Assembly: GCA_030653035.1 (NCBI GenBank)
Contig: JAUSAB010000043.1
Span: 1 to 45,012 of the forward strand
DNA: 45,012 bases
Reading direction: 5' to 3'
From: Desulfocapsaceae bacterium
GTDB lineage: Bacteria > Desulfobacterota > Desulfobulbia > Desulfobulbales > Desulfocapsaceae
Numbering within the stretch: position 1 is the first letter of the stretch; every line of letters begins with the position of its first letter. The notes beneath the pieces were generated by a model. That model searched no databases, was not told where the DNA came from, and saw nothing but the letters and a program-made list of their open reading frames with translations. Below are positions 22,216 to 30,906 of this stretch, one piece after another. Made by a program: the position numbers and the translations under genes.

Positions 22216-23199
22216 ATGTCCTTTCCGGCCACCACCCTCCTCTCTCTCTGGCACGACCTGATCTGGCCGCTGATCCGGCTGCTTGGCTATGTTTCGCTCA
22301 GCCTTTTTCTTGCCAACCTGATCGAGTCCCTGAACTGGACCAGCAAGATTGCCGCCCTGGCCCGCCCCCTGCTGCGCCTGGGGAATCTCTCCGACATCTC
22401 AAGCGCCTCCTTCACCATGGCGCTTTTTTCCGGCATCAGCGCCAACACCATGCTCTCCGAGGCCTATGAGCAGAACAAGATCTCCCGCAAAGAGCTGATC
22501 CTGGCCAACCTGTTCAACTCCATGCCCACCTATTTCCTGCACCTGCCCACGGTCGCCTTCATCACGGCGCCGATGATCAAGGGAGCGGCCATCATCTATG
22601 TGGGCATCACCTTTAGTGCGGCTATTCTCCGCACCTTTTCCATCCTTGTTATCAGCCGTTTTATCCTCCCCAAACCGGAACGGCAAAACGACATAAAGGT
22701 GGAAGGCCCCATAGAGACAAATGGCGGCTGGAAAAGCGGCTGGAACGCCATCCTGCAAAAAAGCTGGATGCGCTTTAAAAAACGCATCCGCTCGATCATC
22801 CGCTTTACCATTCCCATCTACATCGCCATCTTCTGGCTCCACAAGGAAGGAATCTTCACCGCCATGGAAAAGATGATGGCCACCTACTTCTCTTTCCTGC
22901 CCTGGCTCACCCCTGAATCCATGGGGATCATCACCCTGCAGATTGCCGCCGAATTCACAGCCGGCCTGGCTGCGGCCGGGGCCCTGCTCCAGGCGGGCAG
23001 CATGACCTACCGGGAAATCATCCTGGCGCTTCTGGTCGGCAATATCCTTTCGTCCCCGATCCGGGCCATCCGCCACCAGTTCCCCTATTATGCCGGGATC
23101 TTCCAGCCAAAGGTGGCCGCCGAACTGATCTTTTACAACCAGATTTTCCGTATCGGCAGTCTGATGATCATGGGAAGTATCTACTTTTTCCTGTCGTAA
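22216..23199 (+). CDS. Nucleoside-recognition (Gate) domain membrane protein
   Basis: A 327-residue polytopic inner-membrane protein with about eight helices. The first third contains ALFSGISANTMLSEAYEQN and LILANLFNSMPTYFLHLP, the signature of the Gate/nucleoside-recognition fold shared with spore-maturation proteins and concentrative nucleoside transporters. The second half has a matching AEFTAGLAAAGALLQAG and LVGNILSSPIRAIRHQFPYY. The substrate is unknown. It follows sppA by 21 bases and precedes the CDP-alcohol phosphatidyltransferase by 39 bases, which suggests one transcript. A link to nucleotide or lipid transport is plausible but not shown. Confidence 0.78.
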   Translation: MSFPATTLLSLWHDLIWPLIRLLGYVSLSLFLANLIESLNWTSKIAALARPLLRLGNLSDISSASFTMALFSGISANTMLSEAYEQNKISRKELILANLFNSMPTYFLHLPTVAFITAPMIKGAAIIYVGITFSAAILRTFSILVISRFILPKPERQNDIKVEGPIETNGGWKSGWNAILQKSWMRFKKRIRSIIRFTIPIYIAIFWLHKEGIFTAMEKMMATYFSFLPWLTPESMGIITLQIAAEFTAGLAAAGALLQAGSMTYREIILALLVGNILSSPIRAIRHQFPYYAGIFQPKVAAELIFYNQIFRIGSLMIMGSIYFFLS

Positions 23200-23238: not shown

Positions 23239-23787
23239 ATGAAACGCTACTTGGCCCTCATCCCCAATATCCTGTCCATGTTGCGACTGGGGCTGGCCTG
23301 CCTCTTTCCTTTCTGCCCAGAGGAGCTGTGGGTCTGGCTTATTCTCGGCAGCGGCGCCAGTGATTTTCTCGACGGCTGGTGCGCCAGACGCTGGAAAGTG
23401 GCGAGCTGGCAGGGCGGCCTGCTCGACGCCGTTGCCGACAAGATGTTCATGCTCGTGGCCCTGACGACCTTTGCCATGACCGGCAGATTCGCCGTCTGGT
23501 GGATTCCGGCCGTGATAGCCCGCGATCTGACCGTGGCCATTGCCGCCGGCTATGCAGCGCTGAACCACTCCTGGGATTCGTTTCGCAATATGGAGGCACG
23601 ATGGTCAGGCAAGCTGGCAACCGCTGGACAATTTATCCTTTTGCTCACGGTGGTCCTTTTTCCAGGGGCAATCCCGGTGGCCCTGCTGGCTACCATCCTT
23701 TGCAGCGTCTTTGCCGCCAGAGATTACGGACGACTCTTTTATCAGGCGCTCCGCCAGCGAAAAAGTCGGGTTGAAACCCGACTTTAG
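23239..23787 (+). CDS. CDP-alcohol phosphatidyltransferase family protein
   Basis: A 182-residue membrane enzyme with five to six helices. It contains the full family motif DxxDGxxARx8GxxxDxxxD: SDFLDGWCARR, then GGLLDAVADK, with the four Asp that bind metal and the CDP-lipid. The enzyme transfers a phosphatidyl or similar group from CDP-activated lipid to an alcohol acceptor (glycerol-phosphate, inositol, serine and others); the acceptor cannot be read from sequence. Length is shorter than PgsA's usual, but the motif is intact. It is sandwiched between the Gate protein and a CarS-like/phosphoesterase fusion, which suggests a shared lipid role. A hairpin overlaps its stop codon. Confidence 0.88.
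   Translation: MKRYLALIPNILSMLRLGLACLFPFCPEELWVWLILGSGASDFLDGWCARRWKVASWQGGLLDAVADKMFMLVALTTFAMTGRFAVWWIPAVIARDLTVAIAAGYAALNHSWDSFRNMEARWSGKLATAGQFILLLTVVLFPGAIPVALLATILCSVFAARDYGRLFYQALRQRKSRVETRL
23762..23785 (+). terminator. Hairpin overlapping the end of the CDP-alcohol transferase gene
   Basis: A perfect 10-bp stem AAAGTCGGGT / ACCCGACTTT with a TGAA loop covers the last codons. No U-tract follows, so it may be an mRNA-end stabiliser or a weak terminator rather than a full intrinsic terminator. Confidence 0.5.
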
Positions 23788-23883
23788 GCTGAAGGCTGAA
23801 GGCTGAAGGGAATTTTACCCAAGCCCTACTACAAACCTCACCTTCTGTCTTCAGCCTTTCACCTTCAACCTTTACCTTCAGCC
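23787..23883. repeat. Heptamer repeats in inverted arrangement
   Basis: GGCTGAA is repeated three times in tandem at 23787-23807. Its complement TTCAGCC appears at 23850-23856 and 23877-23883, with related ttcaacc and ttcacc between them. The mRNA could fold into a long imperfect hairpin between the two genes. It is too short and irregular to be a CRISPR array. Confidence 0.6.
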
Positions 23884-23901
23884 TTTTCCAAAGAAACCAG
23901 C

Positions 23902-25305
23902 ATGATCGCGGCAGCCATACCTGTTCTCTCTCTTGTTCTCTTTCTCCTGTGGGTCAACGGACTGCCGCCTTTGATCAGTATGTTCTGCGGCGACCGCTGG
24001 AACAGACCGCTTGATGGCGGCAAGGTCTGGCGAGACCAGCAACCCATCTTCGGGCCTCACAAAACCATCCGCGGCATCGTCGCCAGTCTGCTCGGGGGAA
24101 TCCTGGCCGCACATCTTCTGGGCGTTTCCTGGTGGGTCGCAGGTCTTGCCGCTCTGCTGGCCATGAGTGGCGACCTGTTATCCAGCTTTATCAAACGTCG
24201 CCGCACCCTGAAAAGCGGCACGGAAATCGTCATCCTCGACCAGATCTTCGAATCCCTGCTCCCCACCCTGTTCCTGGGGGCAATTTTAAATCTCACCTGG
24301 GGGCAGATCGCGGCTATCCAGGTCGTGTTCGTTACTATTGCCTACTGGAGTTCCCGCTTCTGGCAGTTTATTCTCAACCGGCCGCCGCTGGCCAATTACC
24401 CCCGCCAGGTGCGCTCCACGGTGCGCCTGCGTGAATGGCGAGCCTGCCACACTCCACTGGCCCGGTGGCAGTCCCTGTTTAATCTAAGCAGCTTTCTTTC
24501 TGAACAGGTCTTTCTCACCGCCGTGTTCAAAATGACCGGCCTCTACAAAAAGGGGAAGCGCAATGCCCTCAAGATCAAGGTGGTGGAAAAGACATTTTGT
24601 TTTCCAACGCTGCCTGACTCCTTTGACCAGTTCCGCATCCTTCTGCTGACCGATCTCCACCTGGATGGCCTGGGTGGCCTGACCGATACGCTCATCACTC
24701 ACATCCAAGGACTTGAGGTCGATCTCTGCCTGATCGGCGGAGATATCCGAATGTTAACCTACGGGCCCATCGCCCCCTGCCTCAGACGCCTGCGCCGCCT
24801 CCTGCCCCATGTCCGTGCCAAGGACCGCCTGCTCGGTGTTCTGGGAAATCATGATTGCCTGGAAATGACCCCGGATTTCGAAGAGGCCGGCCTGATCATG
24901 CTGATCAACGAATCATGGCCCATTGACCGCAACGGCGAACGGATCTGGGTGGTTGGCGTCGATGACCCCCATTTCTACAAAACAGCAGATGCCCAATCCG
25001 CCTTCCGTGATGTGCCGGCTCAGGCCTTTACCATCTTCCTGGCCCACTCGCCGGAGGCCTACCAACAAGCGGCACAATGCCAGGCCCAACTCTATCTCTG
25101 CGGCCACACCCACGGCGGACAGATCTGCCTGCCGGAGCGCGGCCCCATCCTCACCAACTCCCGAGCGCCCCGCTTTACCGCATCGGGGAGTTGGCAATAC
25201 CAAAACATGCAGGGCTATACCAGCCGGGGAGCTGGTCCATCCGGTATCCCCCTGCGTTTTAACTGCCCCGGCGAGATCGCGCTTATTACCCTGCGTAAAG
25301 GGTGA
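23902..25305 (+). CDS. Fusion of a CDP-archaeol-synthase-like membrane domain and a metallophosphoesterase
   Basis: A 467-residue two-domain protein. Residues 1-165 resemble CarS/DUF46, the CTP-dependent CDP-lipid synthase family: several membrane helices, PIFGPHKTIRG (49-58), SGDLLSSFIKRR (89-100) and LDQIFESLLP (112-121), which match the family's conserved KTxRG, GDxxxSFxKRR and LDQ stretches. Residues about 220-467 are a calcineurin-like phosphoesterase with all metal motifs: TDLHLDG (250-256), GGD (279-281), GNHD (315-318), HSPE and GHTHGGQ (401-407), of the YkuE/LpxG-like kind. It may both activate and hydrolyse a nucleotide-linked or phosphorylated lipid. No frameshift separates the domains. 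It follows the CDP-alcohol transferase by 114 bases. The substrate is unknown. Confidence 0.8.
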   Translation: MIAAAIPVLSLVLFLLWVNGLPPLISMFCGDRWNRPLDGGKVWRDQQPIFGPHKTIRGIVASLLGGILAAHLLGVSWWVAGLAALLAMSGDLLSSFIKRRRTLKSGTEIVILDQIFESLLPTLFLGAILNLTWGQIAAIQVVFVTIAYWSSRFWQFILNRPPLANYPRQVRSTVRLREWRACHTPLARWQSLFNLSSFLSEQVFLTAVFKMTGLYKKGKRNALKIKVVEKTFCFPTLPDSFDQFRILLLTDLHLDGLGGLTDTLITHIQGLEVDLCLIGGDIRMLTYGPIAPCLRRLRRLLPHVRAKDRLLGVLGNHDCLEMTPDFEEAGLIMLINESWPIDRNGERIWVVGVDDPHFYKTADAQSAFRDVPAQAFTIFLAHSPEAYQQAAQCQAQLYLCGHTHGGQICLPERGPILTNSRAPRFTASGSWQYQNMQGYTSRGAGPSGIPLRFNCPGEIALITLRKG

Positions 25306-25337: not shown

Positions 25338-25518
25338 AAGCACATGCCATAAAACATGAGCTGAAAAAATGTTTCTTTATTGTCTTGCTTCCAGTACGTT
25401 ACTCTCTCCTTTTATGGTATTTTTTTATTTTTTTGGTGATGATCCAACTTCTTAAAAGAAAGAGTACTTTTTGCTCCCGTTGTTCCGAATTCACCCAAAA
25501 CATTTCACTCTCTGCCCT

Positions 25519-27873
25519 ATGAGCTACAACGAAGCCGACACCAGGTCCAAGCTGATTGACCCCGCCATATACACTCGCGGTTGGTCGGAAGACCACATCA
25601 AGCGCGAAGAGAGCGCCGGAACCATTGAAATCGTTACCGGCAAGGCCAGACGTAACGCCAAAGGAAAAGTTGACTATACCCTGCGGCTCAAGGTGGCCAG
25701 CTCTACCCAACCCGTTGCCGTCGCTATCATCGAGGCCAAGGCGGAAGGAAAACACCCCGGTCACGGTCTGGAACAAGTTAAGGCCTACGCCGTCTGCAAG
25801 CGCCTCAACGTCCCCTTTGCCTTCTCCTCTAATGGCCATCAGTTTGTCGAGTTCGACCGCTTTTCAGGAATAACAACCGCCCCTCGTCCAATGGCTGAGT
25901 TTCCGTCCCCGGATGAGCTCCGTCATCGCTACGAAGCCGGAATGGGCTTCTCTCTGGACTCCCAGGCTGCCAAACCGTTGCTTGCTCTCTATCACGGCGG
26001 TGAAGCTGGCAGGCGCTACTATCAGGATGCCGCGATTCGAGCCGTACTGGAGAAAATTGCCCGCTGTGACGCCCAGGGAGAAGCCAAACGCGCCCTCCTC
26101 TCTCTGGCCACTGGCGCAGGGAAGACCTTTATTGCGGTCAATCTCCTTAAAAAAATTGCCGATGCCGGTTTACTCCGCAGGGCCTTGTTTATCTGCGACC
26201 GCGACGAACTGCGCACCCAGGGGCTTGCCGCCTTGCAGAAAGTCTTTGGTTCAGACGCGATGGCGGCCACCGGCAGCAATCCTGAGAAGAACGCCCGCGT
26301 GGTGGTTGCCACCTATCAAACCTTGGATGTGGATTCAGACGAGGCGGATGCCAACTTCCTGACCACCAACTACCCGGAGAACTATTTTTCCCATATCGTG
26401 ATCGACGAGTGCCACCGCTCGGCTTGGGGAAAGTGGTCACAGGTACTGACCCGCAACCCGGCGGCGGTGCAAGTGGGCCTCACCGCCACCCCCCGCAAGT
26501 TAGTTGTGCCCCAGGGAGACAAAGACGCCGAGGCTGACGCCAATATCAGCGCCGACAACTTCAAGCATTTCGGTGAACCGGTTTACGAGTATGACATGGC
26601 GCAAGCTATCGAGGACGGCTATCTGGCGGCCTGCGAGATCATCAAGGGACGGGTCAGCCTGGATGCTAACAAGCTCACCAGAGAAGAAATCTTCAACCAT
26701 CAGGTAAAAAATGCCAAGACTGGCCTTGAAGTCAGCACGGCAGAGGTGAAAGAGGAGTACGAAAACACGCACTTCGAGGGGCAAATCCTGCTGCCGGACC
26801 GGGTCAACGCCATGTGCGAAGACCTTTTTAAATACTTGTGTGAAAGCGGCGGACCGGAACAGAAAACCATCATCTTCTGCGCCCGCGACCGTCATGCCGA
26901 CGACGTCGCAACAGCCTTGAACAACCTCTATGCCGCCTGGTGTCAGCAGGAAGGCAAGACCCGCAAAGAGCCTTACGCCTTCAAGTGTACAGCGGCAAAC
27001 GACGGCAACGACTATCTGCCCGACCTGAAAGGGGCCTCTCGCCACCACTTTATCGCCACCACCGTCGATCTGCTGTCCACCGGGATTGACGTTCCCTGCG
27101 TGCGGAACATCGTCTTCTTCAAGTACGTCAAGTCCCCCATCTCCTTTTACCAGATGATTGGACGCGGCACCCGCATCGACATCCCCAGCAATAAACTGAT
27201 GTTCCGGGTCTATGACTACACCAACGCCACCCGCCTGTTCGGCGAGGATTTTGTGACACTCCCACCCCGTCCCGGCGGTGGCGGAGGTGGCGGTGGAGAC
27301 GGGCCGACGATCATTCAGGTGGAGGGGTTTGATGTGGTGGTGACACCGGCGGGACGTTACATTGTCACCCAGGTGGATGGCAAGGCCATGCCGGTAACAG
27401 TCGAAGAATACAAGGCCAGGTTGGCGGCAAAGCTGGTGGCAGAGGCCCCAACCATCGACAAGTTCCGCAGCCAGTGGATAGAGCCGGTCAATCGCCAGCC
27501 ACTGATTGCCCGGTTGGTCATGTCAGGCTACAACCCAGGCGTGTTGCGGATGGTGGAAGAGATGGAAGAGTACGACCTCTACGACGTACTGGTGGATGCG
27601 GCCTACGGGGCAGTCCCACGCACCCGGACCGATCGCGCCTTCGCTTTCATTTACAAAAATGAGGGGTGGTTGACCGACCTGCCAGCGGCAGCCACTGCCG
27701 TAGTCAAAGCCGTTGCCAGGCAATTCGAGAAAGGTGGCACTGATGGCTTAGAGAGTCGGGAGATTTTCCAGACCCCCGATGTCAGGAATGCCGGCGGATT
27801 GGCAGGGCTGAAGGCTGCCGGGAATCCAACGGAGTTGTTGAAAGAGACTAAGGCGAGGATGTTTGCGGCATGA
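25519..27873 (+). CDS. hsdR: Type I restriction enzyme, R (nuclease/translocase) subunit
   Basis: A 784-residue EcoEI-type HsdR. It cuts DNA after ATP-driven translocation, in complex with HsdM and HsdS. The start ATG 25519 gives MSYNEADTRSKLIDPAI, the usual N-terminus; the frame is open to 25471 but without homology. The nuclease domain shows Asp52 and IEAK (71-74). The helicase has Walker A ATGAGKT (197-203), DECH in VIDECHRSAWG, GLTATPRK and later motif VI QMIGRGTR. A glycine-rich linker (PRPGGGGGGGG) joins the helicase to the C-terminal domain that contacts HsdM. Its stop overlaps the hsdS start (ATGA). The AT-rich 200 bases upstream probably contain the promoter. Confidence 0.93.
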   Translation: MSYNEADTRSKLIDPAIYTRGWSEDHIKREESAGTIEIVTGKARRNAKGKVDYTLRLKVASSTQPVAVAIIEAKAEGKHPGHGLEQVKAYAVCKRLNVPFAFSSNGHQFVEFDRFSGITTAPRPMAEFPSPDELRHRYEAGMGFSLDSQAAKPLLALYHGGEAGRRYYQDAAIRAVLEKIARCDAQGEAKRALLSLATGAGKTFIAVNLLKKIADAGLLRRALFICDRDELRTQGLAALQKVFGSDAMAATGSNPEKNARVVVATYQTLDVDSDEADANFLTTNYPENYFSHIVIDECHRSAWGKWSQVLTRNPAAVQVGLTATPRKLVVPQGDKDAEADANISADNFKHFGEPVYEYDMAQAIEDGYLAACEIIKGRVSLDANKLTREEIFNHQVKNAKTGLEVSTAEVKEEYENTHFEGQILLPDRVNAMCEDLFKYLCESGGPEQKTIIFCARDRHADDVATALNNLYAAWCQQEGKTRKEPYAFKCTAANDGNDYLPDLKGASRHHFIATTVDLLSTGIDVPCVRNIVFFKYVKSPISFYQMIGRGTRIDIPSNKLMFRVYDYTNATRLFGEDFVTLPPRPGGGGGGGGDGPTIIQVEGFDVVVTPAGRYIVTQVDGKAMPVTVEEYKARLAAKLVAEAPTIDKFRSQWIEPVNRQPLIARLVMSGYNPGVLRMVEEMEEYDLYDVLVDAAYGAVPRTRTDRAFAFIYKNEGWLTDLPAAATAVVKAVARQFEKGGTDGLESREIFQTPDVRNAGGLAGLKAAGNPTELLKETKARMFAA

Positions 27874-29132
27874 GTGGGGGACTGACGGAACAAACGCTGC
27901 CTGCTGGGTGGCGATGGGTAAAACTTGAAGACCTGGTAGATCCTTTCAATGGCTATTGGGGAGAAGATGCCCCCTTCGATATGTCAACAGAGATGACAGT
28001 TCTTGGTGTTGGCAACATAACGAACAACGGATATATACGCCTTAAAGGTGCCACAATTCGTCATTTCTCTCTGCAAGATATGGAAGCTGTTGTGAGTGAG
28101 GGCGACTTGTTAGTAGTAAAGTCAAGTGGCTCAGCCGCGAATATCCGCTCTGGAAAAACCGGAATCTGTTCGCCTGAGTTAGATGGGAAAATAGCATATT
28201 CAAACTTCATGATTCGGTTATCTTCACGAAGAAGTATAGTCGACCCTTATTTGCTGTGGCATATTTTGAATAGTGATATTGCCAAGGAGTTTATCAAGAA
28301 AATAGTTGGAGGATCTACCTATCCAAACATCAAATGGTCAACCTACAAGGATTTTACTTTCCCCCTCCCAGCTCTCCCCGAACAAAAACGCATAGCTGCA
28401 ATCCTGACCGAGCAGATGGCGGCAGTCGAGAAGGCTCGAGCAGCGGCAGAGGCACGGCTGAAAGCGGCAAAAGAGCTGCCAGCGTCTTACCTGCGTGAGG
28501 TTTTTAAGAGCGAAAAAACTCAGGGGTGGCATACAATGGCACTAGGCGACGCGGGCGAAGTAGTATCCGGGGTCACCTTGGGTAGCAAGATAAAAAAGGT
28601 CAAGGTTCGAGCAGTCCCTTACCTACGGGTGGCTAATGTCAAGGACGGGCACTTAGACCTTAATGACGTCAAGACCATCGAAGTAACAGAAAATGAAATA
28701 CAAAGATGGCGGCTGCAAGCTGGTGACCTATTACTGACAGAAGGCGGCGATCCCGACAAGCTTGGACGAGGCAGCTTTTGGAACGATGAGATTCCTGAGT
28801 GTATCCACCAGAACCATATCTTTCGTGTTCGTTTTCCCCAAGATAGATTCCTCCCGGAATTCCTCTCTGCTCAGATGTCTTCTGAGTACGGCAAATCCTA
28901 CTTTCTGGCACATGCAAAGCAAACGACCGGTATCGCAACGATAAATCAGAAAGTTCTGAAAGCTTTCCCTTTGCTCGTGCCTCCCATAAAAGAACAGATG
29001 GAGATCGCAGAGGCCATCTCGTCCAAGATCAGCACTGCGAACCAAATATGCACCATGCTTTTTGAAGAACTTACCACCATCAATAAACTGCCCGCAGCCT
29101 TACTGCGTCAGGCATTCGCGGGAGAACTATAA
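27870..29132 (+). CDS. hsdS: Type I restriction enzyme, S (specificity) subunit
   Basis: A 420-residue specificity subunit, which chooses the DNA target for both methylation and cutting. It has two target-recognition domains: residues about 5-165 and about 210-370. Each is followed by a long helical spacer beginning with PLPALPEQKRIAAILTEQMA and LVPPIKEQMEIAEAIS respectively; the paired spacers form the coiled coil that holds two HsdM copies. The second spacer ends KLPAALLRQAFAGEL. Codon use and GC in the recognition domains are poorer in G+C than hsdR and hsdM, as usual for these exchanged domains. The start is coupled to hsdR and the stop is four bases before hsdM. Confidence 0.93.
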   Translation: MSGGLTEQTLPAGWRWVKLEDLVDPFNGYWGEDAPFDMSTEMTVLGVGNITNNGYIRLKGATIRHFSLQDMEAVVSEGDLLVVKSSGSAANIRSGKTGICSPELDGKIAYSNFMIRLSSRRSIVDPYLLWHILNSDIAKEFIKKIVGGSTYPNIKWSTYKDFTFPLPALPEQKRIAAILTEQMAAVEKARAAAEARLKAAKELPASYLREVFKSEKTQGWHTMALGDAGEVVSGVTLGSKIKKVKVRAVPYLRVANVKDGHLDLNDVKTIEVTENEIQRWRLQAGDLLLTEGGDPDKLGRGSFWNDEIPECIHQNHIFRVRFPQDRFLPEFLSAQMSSEYGKSYFLAHAKQTTGIATINQKVLKAFPLLVPPIKEQMEIAEAISSKISTANQICTMLFEELTTINKLPAALLRQAFAGEL

Positions 29133-29136
29133 AAAC

Positions 29137-30906
29137 ATGGCACGAGGCAGCAAAAAGAACGGCAACGGCAAGGTGCTGGCCACCCAACAATCGGTCAACT
29201 CGACCGTCAAGAGCATTTGCGACATCATGCGTCGATCCAACTGCGCCGGGGCCATGCAGTATGTCCCGGAGCTGACCTGGATTCTTTTTTTGCGTATCCT
29301 CGACGAGCAGGAGACGCATGAAGCAGAGGAGGATGCCGCCCTCGGCATCGACTTTACCCCGTCGCTCCAAGCCCCCTACCGCTGGCAGGACTGGGCGGCC
29401 CCGTTCAATGAGGACATAGCCGTTGCCGCTGATGGTCAGCATAAGCGGGGATGGAAGCGCAAAGAGCTGCATGAGGATGGCGGTTCCGGTGATTTATTCA
29501 ACTTCGTCAACACCGAGCTGTTGCCGCACCTGAAAGCGCTCAAAGACAAGGCGGGGGCCACCCCCCGCCAGAAGGTGATCAGCGAGATCATGTCCGGTGT
29601 CGAGCGGATCAGGATCGACACGGAGCGGAACTTCTGCGAGATTCTGGACCGGGTCCACATGGTCAGCTCGGATACCGTGGATGACACCCATGTCTTCACG
29701 ATTTCCCAGGTGTACGAAGGGTTGCTCCTGAAAATGGGCGAGAAGGGCAACGACGGCGGCCAGTTCTTCACCCCCCGCGAGGTCATCCGGGCCATGGTCC
29801 GGGTCATTGACCCGCAAGCAGGACAGACGGTCTATGATCCCGGTTGCGGCACCGGCGGTTTTTTAGCCCAAAGTTTCGAGTATATGCGTGACCAGTTGGG
29901 AGACGCCGCGACCGCCGAACGACTGGACACCCTCCGTCACCAGACCTTTTTCGGCCGGGAAAAAGAAAACCTGATTTTCCCCATTGCCCTGGCCAATCTG
30001 GTTCTCCATGGCATCAGCCAGCCCAACCTCTGGCACGGCAACACCCTTACCGATGAAAAGAGCTACGACGGATTGTTCCTGGACGCCCCGGCCCAGTTCG
30101 ATGTCGTGCTGACCAATCCTCCCTTCGGCGGCAAGGAAGGCAAGGCGGCCCAGACCCATTTTGCCTACAAAACTGGCGCCACCCAGATGCTGTTCCTGCA
30201 ACACGTCATGGATTATCTGAAAGATGGCGGACGCTGCGGGATCGTTATGGATGAGGGGGTGCTGTTCCGCACCAACGAGACCGCCTTTGTCCAGGTCAAG
30301 CGGAAGCTCCTGGAAGAGAACGACCTGTGGTGCATCGTCAGTCTCCCTGGCGGCGTCTTCACGGCGGCAGGCGCCGGCGTCAAGACCAATCTGCTTTTTT
30401 TCAGCAAAGGCAAGCACACGGAGAAGATTTGGTACTATGACCTATCCGATATTAAAGTCGGCAAAAAGACGCCGATGACCCTCGATAAGTTTGAGGAGTT
30501 CTTTCAGCTCCTGCCGACACGGGGAGACAGCGAGAAAAGCTGGACCATCGACATGGTGGGCCGCAAGCAAAAGGCGACTGAAGAGACCGCGCCGTTTAAG
30601 CAGCAGGCCCGTAAGAAAGAACAGGAGGCCGCCCAATGGTCCGACCTGGTCAAAGAACTCAAAAAAGCCAAGCCGACCGATACTGCCGCCGTAAGCGAGG
30701 CCATGGAAAAGGCAGCAGGCCTGGCCAAGGAAGCGAGGGAACAGGCCGCCAAAGCTGAGGGAATCGAGAACGCGGTCTACGATCTGAAGGCCGTCAACCC
30801 AAATACCAAGAACGAAGAAGACAAGCGGACGTCTGAACAGTTGCTGGATTTCATTGAGGCAAAGGGACGGGAGATCGCCGAGGCATTGGCTCTGCTGCGG
30901 GGCTGA
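29137..30906 (+). CDS. hsdM: Type I restriction enzyme, M (N6-adenine methyltransferase) subunit
   Basis: A 589-residue HsdM. It methylates adenine at the HsdS-defined site with SAM as donor. The start ATG 29137 (MARGSKKNGNGKVLATQQS) lies five bases after hsdS with GGGAG upstream; the earlier frame start at 29062 is inside hsdS. The N-terminal HsdM_N helical domain contains CAGAMQYVPELTWILFLRIL. The SAM motif is DPGCGTGGFL and the catalytic motif is NPPFGG (residues about 328-333). A charged C-terminal helical region (EKAAGLAKEAREQAAKAEG) closes it. Order R-S-M is less common than M-S-R, but all three subunits are intact, so the system should work. Confidence 0.94.
   Translation: MARGSKKNGNGKVLATQQSVNSTVKSICDIMRRSNCAGAMQYVPELTWILFLRILDEQETHEAEEDAALGIDFTPSLQAPYRWQDWAAPFNEDIAVAADGQHKRGWKRKELHEDGGSGDLFNFVNTELLPHLKALKDKAGATPRQKVISEIMSGVERIRIDTERNFCEILDRVHMVSSDTVDDTHVFTISQVYEGLLLKMGEKGNDGGQFFTPREVIRAMVRVIDPQAGQTVYDPGCGTGGFLAQSFEYMRDQLGDAATAERLDTLRHQTFFGREKENLIFPIALANLVLHGISQPNLWHGNTLTDEKSYDGLFLDAPAQFDVVLTNPPFGGKEGKAAQTHFAYKTGATQMLFLQHVMDYLKDGGRCGIVMDEGVLFRTNETAFVQVKRKLLEENDLWCIVSLPGGVFTAAGAGVKTNLLFFSKGKHTEKIWYYDLSDIKVGKKTPMTLDKFEEFFQLLPTRGDSEKSWTIDMVGRKQKATEETAPFKQQARKKEQEAAQWSDLVKELKKAKPTDTAAVSEAMEKAAGLAKEAREQAAKAEGIENAVYDLKAVNPNTKNEEDKRTSEQLLDFIEAKGREIAEALALLRG

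Follow-up and report, generated by a model that had tools for sequence, protein, structure and literature searches.

A CarS-like membrane domain and a metallophosphoesterase in one reading frame

We analysed a 45,012-nt stretch of DNA from a Desulfocapsaceae bacterium (the window, meaning the whole of this stretch) in which a single gene on the forward strand (23902..25305) joins a CarS-like membrane domain to a calcineurin-like metallophosphoesterase (MPE). The gene starts with an ATG at 23902, is conserved among relatives and translates as one frame of 467 residues plus stop with zero internal stops. Residues 1 to 156 (23902..24369) form the CarS-like domain with five predicted transmembrane helices, recognised by Pfam (PF01864 at residues 34 to 148, 39.7 bits against a cut-off of 22), by alignment to the archaeal CarS structure 5guf and in a structure model. 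A conserved basic and helical linker follows (residues 157 to 222; 24370..24567), and residues 223 to 467 (24568..25302) make up the MPE domain, with the Pfam Metallophos family PF00149 matched at residues 244 to 405 (35.4 bits against a cut-off of 21.5) and the motifs DLH, GGD, GNHD, AHSP and GHTHGGQ. A sequence-only reading of this DNA had claimed one intact frame with these two domains, which the 467-residue frame and both Pfam matches bear out, and all motifs that it had listed were found in place: KTIRG (54 to 58), GDLLSSFIKRR (90 to 100) and LDQIFESLLP (112 to 121) in the CarS-like part as well as TDLH (250 to 253), GGD (279 to 281), GNHD (315 to 318) and GHTHGGQ (401 to 407) in the MPE part. 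Mean pairwise identity among fusion proteins is 0.54 in the CarS part, 0.61 in the linker (residues 161 to 222) and 0.67 in the MPE, and the fusion is the sole PF01864 match of the window genome in a Pfam profile search.

Directly upstream on the same strand lies a gene for a CDP-alcohol phosphatidyltransferase of 182 residues (23239..23787; PF01066 with 72.1 bits against a cut-off of 22), which fails the NCBIfam equivalogs for pgsA (62.3 versus 109.1 bits) and ClsA (56.7 versus 240 bits), and before it a gene for a Gate-domain membrane protein (22216..23199, forward strand), whose PF07670 score of 31.6 bits is just over the cut-off of 29.6. Both neighbours had been named in the sequence-only reading and were recovered here, though our open reading frame maps (longest frames with an overlap filter) are crude and missed these two genes behind an antisense frame. 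Between the phosphatidyltransferase and fusion genes, positions 23780-23900 contain GGCTGAAGG repeats along with their complement. The genome has 13 copies of the 16-mer GGCTGAAGGCTGAAGG (overlaps counted) versus 0 of a reversed control, which marks it as a dispersed repeat. Downstream, positions 25471-30906 carry a type I restriction-modification set with HsdR-like (ResIII, 107 bits), HsdS (Methylase_S, 84 bits) and HsdM (N6_Mtase, 197 bits) genes, and no type I restriction genes were seen near the fusion in the neighbourhood maps of relatives, which were compared by cluster and length only.

Fold, active-site motif and topology of the CarS-like domain

For structure modelling, the window protein was combined with 16 relatives taken from named records, and the resulting model (mean pLDDT 73.6, pTM 0.60, with residues 157 to 202 mostly below 50) shows five long helices, then short helices and an alpha/beta domain. 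Three comparisons point to the same relative: phmmer against the PDB (E up to 1) returned one match, archaeal CarS 5guf, over residues 30 to 156 (E 2.2e-8), Foldseek of the fusion model retrieved 5guf at E 9.6e-5, and VIA-align superposed model residues 3 to 154 on it with Z 15.7 and 2.6 Å over 145/158 residues at 25% identity. As modelled, the N-terminal half of the fusion thus has the CarS fold, in line with the earlier assignment and not that of an unrelated membrane family. The Aeropyrum pernix enzyme of 5guf shares with the fusion this fold and the KTxxG, GDxxxSFxKRR and LDQ motifs but has DQLD where the fusion has DQxxE and lacks an MPE; the carrier genomes tested, for their part, have no GGGP synthase over cut-off. 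The match to the CdsA-type family PF01148 of the same CTP-transferase superfamily is weak (15.8 bits, under the cut-off of 24). A shared CarS fold still does not name the substrate, and since CarS of Archaeoglobus prefers DGGGP over phosphatidic acid (excerpt of PMC9385802), the lipid substrate of the fusion cannot be assumed.

The DQxxE motif (D113 and E117 in the window protein) is found in the fusions, in CarS genes linked to a PHP-type phosphoesterase and in plasmid CarS genes, and could be read in every one of the 36 phylum genomes that carry such a CarS, with Q replaced by H in at least two proteins. DQxD, in contrast, is present in 5guf (as DQLD) and in six canonical bacterial CarS proteins of the phylum. 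In the CTP-transferase superfamily, the Mg-K centre is held by two aspartates (excerpt of PMC5898192), and the second of these would be the residue changed in the DQxxE type. Such a change could mean a changed reaction, and dolichol kinase, a member of the same cytidylyltransferase family according to that excerpt, has the two catalytic aspartates in common with it; one might thus picture the fusion as a CTP-dependent lipid-alcohol kinase of the dolichol or phytol kinase kind, enzymes that have the CTP-transferase fold too, joined to an opposing phosphatase, the pair controlling a pool of polyprenol phosphate or another lipid-alcohol phosphate. The closest matches of the CarS-like domain are CarS proteins and not kinases, however, and the neighbouring phosphatidyltransferase uses CDP-lipids, so that we regard a kinase as improbable.

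The loops of the CarS-like domain differ sharply in charge: both active-site loops carry five K/R each, the other two loops carry none, and the linker following helix five holds twelve K/R against two D/E. These charges fit a predicted topology with the N-terminus outside and the C-terminus inside. Together with the topology of ApCarS (excerpt of PMC9385802), they would place the MPE on the cytoplasmic face of the membrane, together with the CarS active-site loops.

The metallophosphoesterase domain

VIA-align of the C-terminal part gave Z scores of about 15 to Mre11, aq_1956, TT1561, Rv0805 and others. The metal-binding motifs DxH, GD, GNHD and GHxH are present in 32/32 fusion proteins, and a further motif of the xHSP type was found by pattern in 27/32; with Metallophos over cut-off, the phosphoesterase can be called complete, as had been proposed. 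Its best named profile matches are the phosphodiesterase YaeI (NCBIfam equivalog NF008460, 77.2 bits, far under the cut-off of 188) and Chlamydia LpxG (NF033458, 53.6 bits, far under the cut-off of 350), families annotated as phosphodiesterase and diphosphatase, not as phosphomonoesterases. LpxG is membrane-associated too (excerpt of PMC4807358), but neither of these models includes a CarS domain. The weak LpxG match and the LpxH structures among the Foldseek matches of the fusion model would be compatible with an MPE that hydrolyses UDP-diacylglucosamine in lipid A synthesis, substituting for LpxG or LpxH. Against this stand an LpxI (LpxI_C) in 20/20 carrier genomes chosen for a census of lipid enzymes, which covers the step, and the many relatives that lack the fusion, and we find this explanation barely credible.

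Distribution and origin of the fusion

The fusion is no accident of one genome: the search for it among relatives found it in full length in 20/58 related genomes and in 22/395 sampled genomes of the phylum, one of these copies (G439) beginning at a contig end. Three more related genomes carry partial versions, in pieces on two contigs (G007), cut by a contig end (G048) or as the last 67 residues only (G005). The latter stretch (G005:C372:43942-44142, locus L025), from the genus of the window, is 72% identical to the end of the fusion and lies well inside a 108-kb contig, so that it is perhaps a remnant. The 17 named records of the fusion come from Desulfobulbaceae, Desulfocapsaceae, Desulfurivibrio and metagenome-assembled genomes (MAGs) labelled Deltaproteobacteria or Proteobacteria.

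Across 24 aligned proteins, K54, T55, G58, G90, D91, S95, K98, R99, R100, D113 and E117 are invariant in the CarS part, as are D251, H253, D281, N316, H317, D318, H382, H402 and H404 in the MPE part. In genome G402, the fusion reads KTSRR at the KTxxG motif, and upstream of it the same short contig (C246; L124) holds a second CarS piece. Phylogenetic trees group the CarS halves of the fusions in one clade that is not fully supported (ultrafast bootstrap 92, SH-aLRT 99) and the MPE halves likewise in one clade (97/87), beside standalone MPEs within a wider clade (100/99); the CarS tree leaves out 3/32 fusion proteins that the cut motif missed (L122, L123 and L125), and the MPE tree includes them. 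A single fusion event would be the simplest reading of both trees. In the CarS tree, 5guf is represented by a fragment on a very long branch that groups with the DQxxE side; its placement is unsure and does not show archaeal and DQxxE types as cleanly separated.

A phosphoesterase partner for every DQxxE-type CarS in the phylum sample

When 395 phylum genomes were searched with a profile of the standalone CarS type (A4), 36 of them matched, 22 with the fusion and 14 with standalone genes of about 165 residues. All 14 standalone genes are followed on the same strand by a gene for a PHP-type phosphoesterase, 13 of them with gaps of 2 to 134 nt and one with a gap of 1456 nt that contains a frame of 133 codons or more. 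Every one of the 36 genomes with a DQxxE CarS therefore has a phosphoesterase partner, a fused MPE in 22 and a PHP-type enzyme in 14. MPE and PHP phosphoesterases have different folds. Within the phylum sample, the partner of the DQxxE CarS is thus always a phosphoesterase, and its type varies.

Counted at E up to 1e-30, which leaves out weaker PHP proteins, the PHP family (A3) occurs in 25/395 phylum genomes, the 14 with a standalone CarS and 11 without an A4 match, and in 0/22 fusion genomes. Two PHP proteins that we scanned exceed the cut-off of PHP_C (29.8 and 27.6 bits versus 21.3) and stay under that of PHP (23.4 and 20.3 versus 26.4), and their nearest named families, CehA/McbA, TrlF and nucleoside bisphosphatase, are all under cut-off. 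HxH, TNH, E69, H109 and SDAH are invariant in 10 aligned PHP partners.

Outside the phylum, the search covered a plasmid collection with three CarS genes of the DQxxE type. On plasmids of Methylobacterium nodulans and Bosea, the CarS gene stands tail to tail with a separate MPE gene (12-nt gap and 7-nt overlap, respectively) whose product belongs to the MPE subfamily of the window, with 45.5% and 42.7% identity to the window MPE. The third, from a Variovorax plasmid, has no adjoining phosphoesterase recognisable by eye and is an exception to the partner rule. Conversely, the MPE subfamily also occurs without CarS, both in phylum genomes and on a Bradyrhizobium plasmid where no CarS lies beside it. 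The sequence-only reading would have been refuted if the two domains were common separately without any conserved neighbourhood, and this is half the case: such separation was found for the MPE, while 0/36 phylum genomes with a DQxxE CarS lack a phosphoesterase.

Canonical bacterial CarS proteins of the same phylum (L166-L171) share the PF01864 family with the fusion but have DQxD, and the next gene is never a phosphoesterase in these six cases. Three of them lie in a run with HMG-CoA reductase, UbiA, phosphatidyltransferase and PS decarboxylase genes, and two beside a radical SAM gene, which the canonical CarS directly adjoins in L169 and L170 (by Pfam on L170, by eye on L169). The former three genomes (L166 in G342, L167 in G322 and L168 in G414) carry a CarS-PHP pair in addition to the canonical CarS, which is part of a conserved six-gene run of HMG-CoA reductase (903 residues, 350 bits, with a kinase-like C-terminal part), a PPDK_N/PEP-utiliser protein, UbiA prenyltransferase, CDP-alcohol phosphatidyltransferase, PS decarboxylase and CarS. 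This run looks like a bacterial isoprenoid phospholipid pathway, though GGGP synthase is not over cut-off there. For Cloacimonetes MAGs that may make archaeal lipids, no CarS is reported in the excerpt of PMC7852524.

Neighbouring genes vary outside the genus of the window

Adjacency was counted for the phosphatidyltransferase, Gate and SppA genes by tblastn over distinct loci, several of the 34 loci outside the window genus having short flanks. The phosphatidyltransferase gene lies directly upstream of the fusion in 11/12 loci of the genus, with L039 as the exception, and adjoins it in 5/34 other loci, upstream in L151 and L153 and downstream in L045, L046 and L047. The adjacency therefore holds almost throughout the genus but rarely elsewhere, and since the order of the two genes differs among the loci that have it, the link between fusion and phosphatidyltransferase is not one inherited block. 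No phosphatidyltransferase was seen beside CarS-PHP in the loci mapped. Gate and SppA adjoin the fusion only in the window genus among the loci examined, so that the Gate gene, earlier offered as a clue to the pathway, says little about it, and a role of its product in the system is doubtful.

Other neighbours outside the genus vary, including a sigma factor (four loci, one family) and a TIGR04013 radical SAM gene (five loci), and overall the neighbourhood gives little information as a route to the substrate. An ABC transporter gene ends just before CarS-PHP in L129, L130, L134, L136 and L139 (ABC_membrane plus ABC_tran in L130). For PHP relatives without CarS, the gene was located in eight of ten neighbourhoods, and in one of these (L181) it adjoins a CDP-alcohol phosphatidyltransferase gene (87.6 bits).

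Lipid enzymes of the carrier genomes

For a census of lipid enzymes, we chose 13 genomes that carry the fusion and 7 that carry CarS-PHP, 20 in total. CdsA, PgpA and LpxI are each present in 20/20, every genome has between two and seven CDP-alcohol phosphatidyltransferases, and GGGP synthase (PF01884) is over cut-off in 0/20, with two partial matches under cut-off and the controls detected. The separate CdsA sets the fusion apart from bacterial CdsA despite their common superfamily and speaks against a housekeeping CDP-DAG synthase, just as PgpA does against a PGP phosphatase for ordinary phosphatidylglycerol; a lipid A step and archaeal-type lipids were set aside on the counts for LpxI and GGGP synthase. 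A defence system was likewise discarded, as PADLOC gave no match for the fusion and none for the standalone CarS, the phosphatidyltransferase or the Gate protein, with only 20.7 bits to PDC-M49A for the PHP protein. The presence of CdsA and PgpA throughout argues for a branch beside the housekeeping pathway, and the proposal of a lipid pathway outside the housekeeping ones was a fair inference.

DQxxE-type genes of Methylobacterium nodulans and Bosea are annotated as "CDP-archaeol synthase", a name that suggests archaeal lipids. The CarS fold and the Pfam name would fit an enzyme making CDP-archaeol for archaeal-type ether lipids, but the fusion misses the NCBIfam CDP-archaeol synthase equivalog NF003114 (63.3 versus 148 bits), has DQxxE instead of DQxD and occurs in genomes where GGGP synthase stays under cut-off. 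The activity named in the earlier reading thus finds no backing, and we consider CDP-archaeol a highly improbable product; judged by motif, partner genes and the GGGP synthase lacking in the genomes tested, the annotation is probably wrong for the DQxxE type.

A possible accessory CDP-lipid pathway

We suggest that CarS-like cytidylyltransferases of the DQxxE type are functionally bound to a phosphoesterase whose place has been filled at least twice by unrelated folds, and that the pair may convert a lipid phosphate in two steps within an undescribed pathway, a proposal that we hold to be only a little short of an even bet. Our preferred, still tentative reading of the fusion, at a probability of a little over one in three, is that of a membrane-anchored two-enzyme unit in an accessory CDP-lipid pathway of cytidylyl transfer, phosphatidyl transfer and dephosphorylation. 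The CarS-like domain, facing the cytoplasm, would move CMP from CTP onto a lipid phosphate to give a CDP-lipid; the CDP-alcohol phosphatidyltransferase, encoded by the next gene here and elsewhere in other genomes, would swap CMP for a phosphorylated alcohol; and the MPE domain, on the same side of the membrane, would take the terminal phosphate off the product, like a PGP phosphatase in the synthesis of phosphatidylglycerol. Sister lineages would use the PHP phosphoesterase from the following gene instead of the MPE. The logic is that of PgsA and PGP phosphatase, from CDP-lipid over phosphatidyl transfer to dephosphorylation, but the fusion would hold the first and last steps, the phosphatase would be of MPE or PHP type, and PgpA is present besides. 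Cytidylyltransferase and phosphomonoesterase activities are what the conserved motifs of the fusion suggest, the order of steps is the one that we infer, and the middle step is included because of the neighbouring phosphatidyltransferase gene in Desulfobulbaceae.

The preferred reading is consistent with the retained CTP-site motifs, CarS fold and MPE motifs, with a phosphoesterase partner in 36/36 genomes, with the tail-to-tail CarS and MPE genes of two plasmids, with CdsA and PgpA being present separately, with loop charges that put the MPE beside the CarS active-site loops and with a phosphatidyltransferase link that was kept through changes of gene order. Against it, the phosphatidyltransferase is not adjacent in 29/34 loci outside the genus, the MPE subfamily occurs without CarS, PHP relatives are found in 11 genomes without a DQxxE CarS, and the nearest MPE families are annotated for phosphodiester or diphosphate cleavage. 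Were a third enzyme to act before the phosphoesterase, one would expect it to accompany CarS just as constantly, which the transferase does not. This much closer tie between phosphoesterase and CarS is the strongest objection to the preferred reading, and it would fit a direct cleavage of CDP-lipid or pyrophosphate as well or better.

One way in which such cleavage could work is as a switch, with CarS making a CDP-lipid, the phosphoesterase cutting the pyrophosphate bond in it and both together controlling how much of one CDP-lipid or lipid phosphate is present. The phosphoesterase is indeed the only constant partner that we found, and enzymes of the MPE superfamily can act on related substrates: LpxG on UDP-diacylglucosamine (excerpt of PMC4807358) and ADPRibase-Mn on CDP-alcohols (excerpt of PMC3407115), with LpxG among the NCBIfam matches, far under cut-off, and LpxH among those of Foldseek. 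Yet a switch would amount to net CTP hydrolysis unless the two sites were regulated apart, no regulatory domain was seen in the fusion, and the phosphatidyltransferase link in Desulfobulbaceae would be left without explanation; we judge it unlikely, if far from negligible. Alternatively, the phosphoesterase might hydrolyse the pyrophosphate that the CarS domain sets free and thereby pull the reaction forward, which would account both for the equal suitability of two unrelated folds and for the partner's bond to CarS itself. Inorganic pyrophosphatase is not an activity of the characterised MPE and PHP families named by the profile matches, however, and CdsA and canonical CarS (by the canonical CarS neighbours checked) manage without such a partner, which makes this role distinctly improbable.

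What the pairing may mean

Both domains were already known, and the new part appears to be the fusion, the DQxxE type and the partner rule: among the titles and abstracts listed by searches of open-licence PMC papers, there is no description of the fusion, of the DQxxE type or of a CarS-phosphoesterase pairing, and a search of the same literature for CDP-archaeol synthase with Desulfobulb found no papers. The use of two unrelated phosphoesterase folds narrows the reaction to something that a CarS enzyme and a phosphoesterase do jointly, and since the fusion holds both parts, the question is testable with one purified protein.
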